From Variovorax sp. IB41 (GTDB lineage: Bacteria > Pseudomonadota > Gammaproteobacteria > Burkholderiales > Burkholderiaceae_C): a DNA stretch of 64,000 nt. Shown here in pieces: positions 51,290-56,257 of this stretch. Below the pieces are notes generated by a model. That model made no database searches. It was not told the origin of the DNA and saw nothing but the letters and a program-made list of their open reading frames with translations. The stretch spans positions 310,001-374,000 of the forward strand of contig NZ_JAEFCB010000002.1 of assembly GCF_016405905.1 (NCBI RefSeq), given 5' to 3'. The stretch's first letter is position 1. The number at the start of each line of letters is the position of its first letter. The position numbers and the translations under genes were made by a program.

Positions 51290-52336
51290 TCAGCGCTTCT
51301 TGCGGAATGCCGCCCATGCCGCCACCGCGGTAAAGCTCGCGACGATCGCCACCACGATCCAGAACCCATGCTTGTGCTCGGCCAGAGGAATGCCTCCCAC
51401 GTTCATGCCGAACAGGCCCGCCAGGATGTTGATCGGCAGCGCCAGCACCGTCACCACCGTCAGCACGAAGAGGCTGCGGTTGTTGTCCTCGTTGACGTTG
51501 GCCGCGATCTCTTCCTGCAGGAGCTTGATGCGCTCCTGCAGCGCCTGCATGTCGCGCAGCACCACCGAGAACTCCTCGGTCGAGCCGCGCAACTCCTGCG
51601 CATCGGGCTCCGACATCCACGAAGGCGGCCCTTGCAGCAGCCGGAACAGCGCGGCCGGCTCGGGCGCCAGCAGCCGTTGCAGCCGCACCAGCAGGCGCCG
51701 CAGCACCCCGAGGCGCGCGCGCTTGTGGTCGAGCCGGCCGGCAAGCAGTTCGTCTTCGATGTGGTCGATGCGCGAGGTGACGCCGCGCACGATCTTCACC
51801 AGCACGTCGGCCTGCGCGCGCAAGAGGTGCTCGAGCAGTTCGGTGCTCGAGCGCGGCGCATCGCCCGCCTTCACCGCCGTGCGCAGCGCATCGACCGAGC
51901 GCAGCGGCTTCGTGCGCGCCGTGACCACCAGGCGCGGGCCCACGCTGATCCACAGCGTGGAGATATCGGAAGGCTCGAAGCTGAACTCGAAGTGCACGTC
52001 GTTGATGACCGCGATCAGCGAGTCGTCCGCGCGCTCGATGCGCGTGGAGGGCAGGCCGTCGTGCAGCGTCTCGTAGAAGGTATCGGAGAGCTTCGCGTGC
52101 CGCAGCAGCCAACGCTCGGCCTGCGCGTGGCTCAAATTGAAATGCAGCCACACATACGCGCCACCGCCGTCATCGACAGCAGCGTCTTCGGGCTGCGCGC
52201 CGAGCCACGCCGCCGCCTCTGCCGAATCGATGGCGCGCGCGGGCTCGGGCGCCGCGGCGTCGAACAGGTAGCCGCAGATCAGCCCGGCTTCGTCGCCGCC
52301 ATAGGACTGGGCGGCGAGATCATGGAATGCCGACAA
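51290..52336 (-). CDS. CorA/ZntB-like divalent cation transporter
   Basis: This 348-residue transporter has a large cytoplasmic domain, a long helix with coiled-coil character (about 200-285) and two C-terminal helices with the family motif GMN (LFGMNVGGIP) between them. The ending KHGFW and a Lys/Arg tail fit ZntB more than Mg-specific CorA. The start is probably TTG 52336; no ATG fits. It ends in the 120-bp palindrome. Confidence 0.88.
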   Translation of the reverse strand: MSAFHDLAAQSYGGDEAGLICGYLFDAAAPEPARAIDSAEAAAWLGAQPEDAAVDDGGGAYVWLHFNLSHAQAERWLLRHAKLSDTFYETLHDGLPSTRIERADDSLIAVINDVHFEFSFEPSDISTLWISVGPRLVVTARTKPLRSVDALRTAVKAGDAPRSSTELLEHLLRAQADVLVKIVRGVTSRIDHIEDELLAGRLDHKRARLGVLRRLLVRLQRLLAPEPAALFRLLQGPPSWMSEPDAQELRGSTEEFSVVLRDMQALQERIKLLQEEIAANVNEDNNRSLFVLTVVTVLALPINILAGLFGMNVGGIPLAEHKHGFWIVVAIVASFTAVAAWAAFRKKR

Positions 52337-52345
52337 GGTGCGTGA

Positions 52346-53989
52346 TCAGAAAAGACGGGTGAAGAGCCAGTAGAGCGAGCCCGACAGCAGCATGGCCACC
52401 GGCAGCGTCAGCACCCAGGCGAGCGCCAGGTTGCGCAGCGTGGACATCTGCAGGCCCGAGCCGCTGGCCGTCATCGTGCCGGCCACGCCGGAGGAGAGCA
52501 CGTGCGTGGTCGAGACCGGCAGGCCATACATGTCGGCCGCGCCGATGGTGAGCATGGCCACCACTTCGGCCGATGCGCCCTGCGCGTAGCTCAGGTGCGT
52601 CTTCCCGATTTTTTCGCCCACGGTGACCACGATGCGCTTCCAGCCGATCATCGTGCCCAGGCCGAGCGCGATGGCCACGGCGATCTTGACCCACAGCGGA
52701 ATGAAGCGCGTCGCATCGTCCAGCTCCTGGCGGAAGGCGTTGACCCGCAGCTTGGTCTCCTCGTCGAACTTCGCGGCGCCGCTCTTGTCGAGGTGGCGAA
52801 TGGCCTCGGAGGCCAGGTACATGTCGTTGCGCACGTTGGCGACGGCCTCGGCCGGCACCGCGGCGAGCGAGCCGTGCTCGCGCACCTGCTGGCCGATGCT
52901 GCCGGCGGTCGCGGCCAGCGCGGGCAAGACCTTGTCGTTGAACTCGCGGGTGCGCACATAGGTGGAGAGCGCATCGCGCGAAGCCGCCGGCGTTGTCGCC
53001 GCCAGTGCGGGCAGCGAGGTCGGCACGCTGCGGTTGAGCGCGTTCTGCGCCATCTCGGCCACGGCCACGAACTTGACCGTCTCGTTGGCGGGCATCGCGC
53101 GGTTCAGCGCATAGGCCATCGGCACCGTGCCGACCAGGATCAGCATGATCAGCCCCATGCCCTTCTGTCCATCGTTGGAACCGTGCGCGAACGACACGCC
53201 GGTGCAGGTGAGGATCAGCAGACCACGAATCCACCACGGGGGCGGCGTGTTGCCCTTGGGCTCTTCATACAGCGCGCGGTTCTTCACGAAGGCGCGCAGC
53301 GCCAGCAGCAGCAGCGCCGCGCAGCCGAAGCCCACCATCGGCGAGAGCAGGAGCGAATAGCCCACTTTGGTGGCCTGCCCCCAGTCGACGCCGCTGGTGC
53401 CGTCGCGCCCATGCATGAGCGCGTTGGCAATGCCCACGCCGATGATCGAGCCGATCAGCGTGTGCGACGACGACGCCGGCAGCCCCAGCCACCAGGTGCC
53501 CAGGTTCCAGATGATCGCGGCGATCAGGAGCGCGAACACCATCGCGAAGCCCGCGCCCGAGCCCACCTGCAGGATGAGCTCCACCGGCAGCAGCGCGATG
53601 ATGCCGAAGGCCACCGCGCCGCTGGACGCCAGCACGCCCAGGAAATTGAAGAAGCCCGACCACACCACCGCGAAGTTGGGCGGCAGCGAGTGCGTGTAGA
53701 TCACCGTGGCCACCGCATTGGCCGTGTCGTGAAAGCCGTTGACGAACTCGAAGCCCAGCGCGATCAGGAGCGCCACGCCCAAAAGAATGTAGGGCACCCA
53801 GGTCGTCATGGGCGCGCCCGAGGCCGTGACGTCGCCCACCAGGCTCCACGCCGTGAAGAGCAATCCCGCGGCCAGCAGGCCCACGAAAGTGATCAGCGTG
53901 ACCGGACCGGGCTTGGCATCGAGCTTGGGCCGGTGCGCCTCTGTGGGCGCGGCCGGCATCTCCGTATTCGGGGCGGCGAGCGTGTTCAT
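52346..53989 (-). CDS. pitA: PiT-family inorganic phosphate transporter
   Basis: This 547-residue PHO-4/PiT transporter has the duplicated signatures GFEFVNGFHDTANAVAT near residue 75 and GVSFAHGSNDGQKGMG in the second half. It is longer than E. coli PitA (499) because of a large central hydrophilic loop. The start ATG 53989 is set by the conserved short N-terminus. It is divergent from ppk2 and shares a region with two Pho-box-like sites; phosphate uptake and polyphosphate synthesis are functionally matched. Confidence 0.93.
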   Translation of the reverse strand: MNTLAAPNTEMPAAPTEAHRPKLDAKPGPVTLITFVGLLAAGLLFTAWSLVGDVTASGAPMTTWVPYILLGVALLIALGFEFVNGFHDTANAVATVIYTHSLPPNFAVVWSGFFNFLGVLASSGAVAFGIIALLPVELILQVGSGAGFAMVFALLIAAIIWNLGTWWLGLPASSSHTLIGSIIGVGIANALMHGRDGTSGVDWGQATKVGYSLLLSPMVGFGCAALLLLALRAFVKNRALYEEPKGNTPPPWWIRGLLILTCTGVSFAHGSNDGQKGMGLIMLILVGTVPMAYALNRAMPANETVKFVAVAEMAQNALNRSVPTSLPALAATTPAASRDALSTYVRTREFNDKVLPALAATAGSIGQQVREHGSLAAVPAEAVANVRNDMYLASEAIRHLDKSGAAKFDEETKLRVNAFRQELDDATRFIPLWVKIAVAIALGLGTMIGWKRIVVTVGEKIGKTHLSYAQGASAEVVAMLTIGAADMYGLPVSTTHVLSSGVAGTMTASGSGLQMSTLRNLALAWVLTLPVAMLLSGSLYWLFTRLF

Positions 53990-54039
53990 GGGCGGTTTTT
54001 TTAGGGTGTTGGAGTGGCTGCACATGGTGTTCGCGCCGT

Positions 54040-54057
54040 GTGACAACGGCGTGTCGG
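54040..54057 (-). promoter_or_regulatory. Pho-box-like site facing pitA
   Basis: Read on the minus strand the site is CCGACAC-GCCG-TTGTCAC: two 7-base half-sites separated by 4 bases, the layout of a PhoB-binding box. It matches 13 of 18 positions with the mirror-image site at 54080-54097. It lies 50 bases upstream of the pitA ATG. Confidence 0.5.
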
Positions 54058-54079
54058 CCTACGAAAAGCCGCCGCCAAA

Positions 54080-54097
54080 CCGTCACGCCGCAGTCAT
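54080..54097 (+). promoter_or_regulatory. Pho-box-like site facing ppk2
   Basis: CCGTCAC-GCCG-CAGTCAT has half-sites matching the CTGTCAY consensus in five and six of seven positions with the correct 11-base period. It lies 51 bases upstream of the ppk2 ATG, mirroring the distance on the pitA side. Confidence 0.55.
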
Positions 54098-54148
54098 ACG
54101 GGGCGTGCAGCATGCTTTTTTCTTCCCCCCACTTCCTTCTTCCTCATC

Positions 54149-55069
54149 ATGCTGCCGAGCGCCCTTCCCGACCACGACGACCTGATGCAACGCATCGCCC
54201 GCGACCTGATCGACAGCTACGACGAAGAGCTCGAGCTGGAGATCGAAGACCGCAACATCGACGGGCTCGACCCCGCCGCCGTGGTCGCGACCGACAAGGC
54301 CGCGCGCCAGGCCTATTTCAAGGAGCTGTTCCGCCTGCAGGGCGAACTGGTCAAGCTGCAGGACTGGGTGCAGCACAGCAAGCAGAAGGTCGTCATCCTG
54401 TTCGAAGGCCGCGATGCGGCGGGCAAGGGCGGCGTCATCAAGCGCATCACGCAGCGCCTGAACCCGCGCGTGGCCCGCGTGGCCGCGCTGCCCGCGCCCA
54501 ACGACCGCGAACGCACACAGTGGTACTTCCAGCGCTATGCCGCGCACCTGCCGGCCGCCGGCGAGATGGTGCTCTTCGACCGCAGCTGGTACAACCGCGC
54601 CGGCGTCGAGCGCGTGATGGGTTTTTGCAGCGACGACGAGTACGAGGAGTTCTTTCGCACCGTGCCCGAGTTCGAGAAGATGCTCGTGCGCTCGGGCATC
54701 AAGCTCATCAAGTACTGGTTCTCCATCACCGACGACGAGCAGCACATGCGCTTTCTCGGCCGCATCCACGATCCGCTCAAGCAATGGAAGCTGAGCCCCA
54801 TGGACCTGGAGAGCCGCCGCCGCTGGGAGGAATACACCAAGGCCAAGGAAATCATGCTGGAGCGCACCCACATCCCCGAGGCGCCGTGGTGGGTGGTGCA
54901 GGCGGTCGACAAGAAGAAGGCGCGCCTGAACTGCATCAGCCACCTGCTGGGCCAGCTGCCCTACCAGGAAGTGGCGCATGCGCCGGTCGAACTGCCGGCG
55001 CGCGTGCGCCATGACGATTACCTGCGCCAGCCGGTGCCCGCCAACATGATCGTTCCGGAGATTTACTAA
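54149..55069 (+). CDS. ppk2: Polyphosphate kinase 2
   Basis: This 306-residue PPK2 transfers phosphate between polyphosphate and nucleotides. Walker A FEGRDAAGKGG near residue 85, ERTQWYFQRY in the middle, Walker B LFDRSWYNRAGVE with the catalytic Asp and Arg, and the lid/core segment IKYWFSI are all present. The single-domain length suggests a class I or III enzyme. It is divergent from pitA. No strong ribosome site precedes ATG 54149; ATG 54185 is a possible alternative. Confidence 0.94.
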   Translation: MLPSALPDHDDLMQRIARDLIDSYDEELELEIEDRNIDGLDPAAVVATDKAARQAYFKELFRLQGELVKLQDWVQHSKQKVVILFEGRDAAGKGGVIKRITQRLNPRVARVAALPAPNDRERTQWYFQRYAAHLPAAGEMVLFDRSWYNRAGVERVMGFCSDDEYEEFFRTVPEFEKMLVRSGIKLIKYWFSITDDEQHMRFLGRIHDPLKQWKLSPMDLESRRRWEEYTKAKEIMLERTHIPEAPWWVVQAVDKKKARLNCISHLLGQLPYQEVAHAPVELPARVRHDDYLRQPVPANMIVPEIY

Positions 55070-55160: not shown

Positions 55161-55210
55161 TGGATTGAACTCTCGTTTGGCCGCCCGGCGCTTTGCCTTC
55201 ACACTGCGCC

Positions 55211-56257
55211 ATGGCCCGTCGTTCCACCGCTTCCGTCTTCGCCCGCGCCTACCAGCGCAACCTGAAGGCACTCACGAAGATCACGCTGAGCAACAGCAAG
55301 CGCGTGGCGGGCCAGGTGCATCGCGCGACCGCCAAGCGCCTGAAGCCGCCGCCCGGCAAGGGCGACTGGCTCAGCGGCATGGCAATCGGCGCGGGCGGGG
55401 CGCGCGGCTATCACCTGTTTCGCCCCGCGGGCCTGCAACTCGAGCCCGGAGAGAAGCTGCCACTCATGGTCATGCTGCACGGCTGCGGCCAGACCGGGCG
55501 CGACTTCGCGGCCAGCACGCGCATGAACGCGCTTGCGGCGCGCCAGCGCTTCCTGGTGCTCTACCCCGAGCAGGACCGCCTCGCCCATCCCCAAGGTTGC
55601 TGGAACTGGTACGAGCGCCGCTCCGGCAAGGCCGACGCCGAGGCCGCGACGCTGATGGCCGCGGTCGACCAGGCCTGCATGCTCTACCCCGTGGACCGCG
55701 AGCGCATCGCGCTGGCCGGACTCTCGGCCGGCGCCAGCATGGCGGCGCTGGTGGCCACGCGCTATCCGCAGCGCTTTCGCGCCGTCGTCATGCATTCGGG
55801 CGTGGCGCCCGGCGCCGCGAAATCGTCGGCCACCGCGCTCGGCGCGATGCGCGGCCAGAACGTGCCGCCGATGCCCGTCACCGCGGTCGGCAAGGCGATG
55901 GGCGCCGCGGCCGTCTTCGCGACGCTGCCGCCGATGCTCGTGCTGCACGGCGATGCCGATGCGGTGGTCGCGCCCAGCAACGCCGTCAACAGCGCCGCCG
56001 TGTGGGCGACGGCCGTGGGCGCGCGGCCCGGGCTGCCGCGCGACGTGCAGCGCGGCAAGCGCCGCCCGATGCGCGTGACCGACTTCAAGCGCAAGGGCCG
56101 CACGGTGGTGTCGTTGTGCGAAATCGCGGGGCTCGGGCATGCGTGGAGCGGCGGCGCGTCCAGGCTGCTGTTCAGCGACGCGGCCGGGCCCGATGCCACG
56201 CGCATGACCTGGGCCTTTGCGACCACGCAGTTCAGGCACGCGGCCAAGGCGGCCTGA
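55211..56257 (+). CDS. PHB-depolymerase-family esterase (LpqC-like)
   Basis: This 348-residue alpha/beta hydrolase is of the Esterase_PHB_depolymerase family. The nucleophile is in GLSAGAS (about residue 177), the oxyanion region is MLHGCGQTGRDF with the typical FAASTRMNALA after it, an Asp is in HGDADAVV, and a His is in GLGHAWSG. The N-terminus is basic (about 50 residues), without a clear signal peptide. Members hydrolyse short polyesters or feruloyl/acetyl esters; activity on aromatic polyesters is not shown. The terephthalate operon lies 3 kb away. Confidence 0.88.
   Translation: MARRSTASVFARAYQRNLKALTKITLSNSKRVAGQVHRATAKRLKPPPGKGDWLSGMAIGAGGARGYHLFRPAGLQLEPGEKLPLMVMLHGCGQTGRDFAASTRMNALAARQRFLVLYPEQDRLAHPQGCWNWYERRSGKADAEAATLMAAVDQACMLYPVDRERIALAGLSAGASMAALVATRYPQRFRAVVMHSGVAPGAAKSSATALGAMRGQNVPPMPVTAVGKAMGAAAVFATLPPMLVLHGDADAVVAPSNAVNSAAVWATAVGARPGLPRDVQRGKRRPMRVTDFKRKGRTVVSLCEIAGLGHAWSGGASRLLFSDAAGPDATRMTWAFATTQFRHAAKAA

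Follow-up and report, generated by a model that had tools for sequence, protein, structure and literature searches.

Pit transporters are commonly regarded as low-affinity systems of phosphate-replete conditions, uninduced or even repressed by phosphate starvation. The control of polyphosphate kinase 2 (PPK2) is, to our knowledge, poorly known.

The described systems closest to the locus considered here are cited from excerpts of the respective papers. The E. coli Pho box consists of two CTGTCAT units separated by a 4-base linker (PMC3511308), and E. coli pitB, which showed neither PhoB binding nor PhoB control, has been excluded as a PhoB target (PMC10294691). Phosphate stress represses pit in S. 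meliloti (PMC8829014), and in P. aeruginosa Pi limitation lowers the level of the PPK2 protein PA0141 (PMC9769906). A joint rise of pitA, ppk2, phoB and phoA has been reported for Herbaspirillum seropedicae, in high-phosphate medium (PMC8222739). Within Variovorax itself, RNA-seq of V. xiamenensis in phosphate-free medium found pst, phoB and phoA up; the main text of that paper mentions neither ppk2 nor pit (PMC12226003).

The pitA-ppk2 intergenic region

The window analysed here is a 64,000-nucleotide stretch of the genome of Variovorax sp. IB41. It contains a pitA-like gene (52346-53989, minus strand) and a ppk2 gene (54149-55069, plus strand), which are divergent, with 159 bases between them and ATG start codons at 53989 (minus) and 54149 (plus). 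The ppk2 product is a PPK2 of the one-domain, P. aeruginosa type (PF03976, 1.2e-108; TIGR03707, 378 bits against a cut-off of 301.8). The pitA product is a low-affinity phosphate (metal-phosphate) transporter of the long form, 547 amino acids in length (PF01384, PHO4, 3.3e-88); the PitA-specific NCBIfam model gives it 445 bits, under its cut-off of 800. Directly 3′ of pitA is a corA/zntB-like metal transporter gene (51290-52336, minus strand; PF01544, 2.2e-51), whose nearest NCBIfam model, ZntB, stays under its cut-off. The leftward unit would be pit-corA, reduced to corA in loci that lack pit. On the other side, a gene resembling those for short-chain-length polyhydroxyalkanoate depolymerases (55193-56257) lies downstream of ppk2 on the same strand.

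Two putative Pho boxes lie in the gap. The one directed towards ppk2, CCGTCAC-GCCG-CAGTCAT, is at 54080-54097 (plus strand, 16.28 bits), and the one directed towards pitA, CCGACAC-GCCG-TTGTCAC, is at 54040-54057 (minus strand, 11.13 bits); 22 bases separate them. The pit-facing box is the weaker of the two and has GACAC instead of GTCAC in its first half. Each box is followed, 10 bases downstream, by a putative -10 hexamer, CAGCAT for ppk2 (54108-54113, plus strand) and CACCAT for pitA (54024-54029, minus strand). It should be pointed out that both hexamers are poor matches to TATAAT, which counts against a promoter reading. No sigma-70 promoter with a -35 element (a -35/-10 pair) was found between 53950 and 54200, and an activator is therefore likely to be needed.

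A preliminary description of this region, made from the sequence, had proposed two outward-facing 18-base sites of the 7-4-7 type between pitA and ppk2, each about 50 bases from its start codon. Sites and gene identities hold, and the distances are 50 bases for pitA and 51 for ppk2; the number of positions shared by the two sites, previously put at 13 of 18, is 14 of 18 by the present count. The stretch is probably a pair of back-to-back PhoB-dependent promoters, one serving ppk2 and the other pitA-corA, a reading to which we assign a probability of roughly 0.8 on the sequence evidence.

Putative Pho boxes elsewhere in the genome

The genome encodes PhoB (G000:C11:783685-784347; TIGR02154, 328.6 bits against a family cut-off of 296.2), and the pstS promoters of the genus provide a reference for its sites. 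In all 18 Variovorax pstS loci collected the promoter reads GTGTCAY-N4-(A/G/C)TGTCAY, then 10 bases, then TA(G/A/C)AGT. The distance from box to -10 is therefore the same in pstS as in the ppk2 and pitA promoters. Ten bases is also the spacing of E. coli phoA. The pstS loci (L019 in this genome; L006-L027) also share a conserved second box in the reverse orientation; it is close to CTGTCACANAACCGTCAT and lies some 50 bases upstream, beside a further half-site.

A half-site matrix was built from pstS and ppk1 sites only. It comprises 25 unique sites, two of which are the ppk1 sites of this genome, so that the training is mainly on one promoter, pstS of the 18 Variovorax loci. Such scoring had been suggested in the preliminary description as a check. 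The background was taken from 795,860 of the 6,867,512 bases of the genome, in 40 pieces, and gave 1,590,360 scoring positions on the two strands, those spanning piece borders being unscored. The ppk2 box ranks fifth among these; the top four are training sites, two each at pstS and ppk1, and the ppk2 box is thus the best untrained site in the 795,860 bp. The pit box ranks 19th, i.e. 19 positions score at least 11.13 bits.

The pattern YGTCAYN6GTCAY matches 21 times genome-wide, compared with 3 matches for the reversed pattern. Genes near the 21 matches include pstS, ppk1 and those for a PhoX-like phosphatase, a phytase-like esterase and a calcineurin-like phosphoesterase, and several matches fall inside genes. 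Ten genes near the matches were scanned with Pfam, and three of these (L155, L160 and L165) gave no Pfam match. At L160 (G000:C33:185228-185244) the Pho box is 5′ of a short protein gene whose product has a start resembling that of secreted proteins. At ppk1, two Pho boxes overlap with an 11-base shift just upstream of the gene (L153/L154, G000:C11:793497-793524). With the sites at ppk1 and ppk2, both polyphosphate kinase genes of the genome have Pho boxes.

Box conservation and the genes that the boxes face

The Variovorax sample consists of 61 genomes, 58 of which have this ppk2. Boxes were picked on matrix score alone, with thresholds of at least 12 bits for the ppk2-facing box and at least 8 bits for the opposite-facing box. 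All 58 ppk2 loci have the ppk2-facing box, and 57 of them have a -10 (nAnnnT) 10 bases past it. Opposite ppk2, the divergent gene is corA in 32 of the 58 loci. Where pit stands in this place, the opposite-facing box is present in 18 of 18 loci, and where corA does, in 31 of 32; the -10 at the same 10-base distance is found in the same proportions (18/18 and 31/32).

The constant geometry of the pit box bears on whether PhoB at the two sites might activate ppk2 and at the same time repress pitA. A precedent is found in S. meliloti, where pit1/SMc02861 is among the genes most repressed under phosphate stress, reciprocal to Pst (PMC8829014, as excerpted), and the lower score of the pit-facing box is in keeping with such a role. 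However, in 18 of 18 pit loci this box has the activating geometry of pstS and ppk2, with 10 bases to the -10, and no other sigma-70 promoter that could be repressed was found in the gap. Repression of pitA is thus considered unlikely.

One may also ask whether ppk2 is the only gene served by the two boxes, the mirrored one being an upstream helper site like the reversed distal box of Variovorax pstS, which is present in 18 loci where no divergent gene was identified. The loci with neither pit nor corA opposite argue against this: the ppk2 box is retained in 8 of 8, yet the minus box is present in only 1 of 8, and its -10 in 0 of 8. The converse is seen at pit loci that lack ppk2. The long pit is an accessory gene in the genus, found in 21 of the 61 genomes (in one, G007, in broken pieces), the other matches being short Pit. 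In 3 of these 21 loci (L133, L134 and L137) there is no ppk2 on the fetched locus; alignment by eye shows that the pit-facing box and the -10 at 10 bases are kept there, and that there is no box on the other side. A helper role confined to ppk2 is therefore very unlikely. As box presence tracks pit/corA and ppk2 across loci, each box appears to belong to the gene that it faces.

Outside Variovorax the sample comprises 85 other loci from 160 genomes of the wider family, mostly one per genus. The ppk2 box at 12 bits or above is rarer here than in Variovorax (54/85), which counts against the PhoB reading. The opposite box is found in 6 of 6 loci with corA opposite, in the single locus with pit opposite and in 20 of 78 with neither. 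Among 80 named loci, the plus box reaches at least 12 bits in 42, compared with 2.2% of 3,200 random stretches. Other arrangements of neighbouring pit and ppk2 also occur: in a Burkholderiaceae MAG (L084, 2364-4001) the two genes are placed head to tail, about 27 bases apart, and in Paraburkholderia (L078, L082 and L090) they are about 2.5-4.3 kb apart.

In a few loci (L309 and L319) the best score alone assigns the box pair wrongly. A second rule was therefore also used, in which the -10 is required and the box threshold is 4 bits. With this rule a minus box is within reach in 57 of 57 pit/corA loci and in 8 of 86 others, the 8 corresponding to chance level. The first half has GACA in 32 of the 57 minus boxes. 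The degenerate first half of the pit box would imply lower affinity, and it predicts that pit is induced later or more weakly than ppk2.

That the inverted repeat represents a hairpin or the palindromic operator of another regulator, with no Pho boxes at all, is hardly tenable and is rejected here: the 98 bases at 54020-54117 do fold as RNA at -52.2 kcal/mol (z -4.07 relative to shuffles), but over the 57 loci the boxes of one locus are barely more alike than boxes taken from separate loci (identity of the 4-base spacer 0.465 within and 0.387 between loci, half-sites about equal), so that pairing is not conserved as such, whereas the conserved part is G-(T/A)-C-A in an 11-base register plus the -10 (a selection rule in this 57-locus comparison, not in the family scan), and the box-to-box distance ranges from 9 to 22 in most loci.

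Traces of pit may persist where the gene is absent. In the pit-less loci L210 and L244, 14 of 16 letters of the last bases of pit are kept just before corA, and L040 likewise has apparent last bases of pitA just upstream of corA. Of the 32 pit-less Variovorax loci, 5 have a match to the pit end before corA (shuffle p up to 0.01), and of the 6 loci outside the genus none does. These apparent remnants are suggestive of a deletion scar and of loss of pit in the nearest clade; a conserved corA leader is an alternative.

Box spacing, a proposed mechanism and known systems

The distances between the two boxes fall into classes. In the 57 pit/corA loci, where a -10 was required, the gaps are 9-11 bases in 28 loci and 19-22 in 25, with one locus each at 0, 2 and 4 and one at 52. 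On a ppk2 tree of 62 rows, made by a quick method and with 15 open forks, 60 of 61 gaps are at 9-12 or 19-22 and none at 13-18; the values are not independent, and on this tree gap class and divergent gene must each have changed at least 8 times. The circular concentration of the gaps is weakly peaked (about 0.75 at a period of 10-10.5 and 0.69 at 9), and the claim of phasing thus rests on the empty 13-18 range. Gaps of about one or two helical turns suggest that the dimers could lie on the same face of the DNA and bind jointly.

For back-to-back PhoB-dependent promoters the following steps are proposed. Under phosphate limitation PhoR would phosphorylate PhoB, and one PhoB dimer would occupy each 18-base direct-repeat box. 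Because each box stands in the place of a -35 element, 10 bases before the -10 hexamer, bound PhoB would recruit RNA polymerase outward, to the right into ppk2 and to the left into pitA and then corA. PhoB binding, activation over repression, co-transcription of pitA and corA and cooperativity of the dimers are what we infer. More tentatively, the boxes could form one phase-locked switch, a possibility that we rate somewhat below even: PhoB dimers bound jointly at the two boxes would switch on ppk2 and pit/corA as one unit, PhoB would turn Pit on, and polyphosphate use would be coupled to the import of phosphate and divalent metals.

The preliminary description had also placed pitA and ppk2 jointly under PhoB. 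The PhoB gene, the resemblance of the boxes to those of pstS and ppk1, the spacing to the -10 and the conservation argue for this part of it at the level of sequence; the leftward unit has to be extended to pit-corA, as corA had been missed. Joint activation by PhoB has against it the weak pit-facing box and the findings on S. meliloti pit, P. aeruginosa PA0141 and E. coli pitB; the H. seropedicae data favour it by the common rise of the two genes and oppose it by the high-phosphate medium.

If PhoB activates both promoters, starvation would equip Variovorax and its relatives in advance with an enzyme of polyphosphate metabolism and with a fast importer of metal-phosphate; cells could plausibly take up and store phosphate in this way once it returns. 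The same promoter is followed by pit in some species and not in others, which makes the genus a ready natural experiment.

The putative promoters described here share with the PhoB promoters of E. coli the two 7-base direct repeats, the 4-base linker, the replaced -35 element, the -10 downstream and the presence of a PhoB gene. They differ in that the linker is G/C-rich (GCCG) instead of A/T-rich, in that two promoters are placed back to back, and in having a Pit transporter among the targets. Activation of a Pit transporter by PhoB would be unusual, if true. In H. seropedicae, also a betaproteobacterium, pitA and ppk2 likewise move jointly; the rise there is in high phosphate, and the term Pho box is absent from the main text (PMC8222739). 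The S. meliloti system resembles the one proposed here in having a low-affinity Pit under phosphate-stress control, but expression falls there (PMC8829014, in excerpt), whereas the geometry of the pit box in Variovorax predicts activation.

The open-licence literature searched, as far as represented by its excerpts, contains no description of Pho boxes between pit and ppk2. Within the genus, the pstS promoter (this genome and 17 relatives) reads GTGTCAY-N4-ATGTCAC, 10 bases, TAGAGT, and like the ppk2 and pitA promoters it has a second, reversed box upstream; the difference is that the reversed box of pstS is not linked here to any divergent gene. The kind of element, a PhoB promoter, is thus already known, and what is new is a putative Pho-box divergent promoter for ppk2 and pit/corA.
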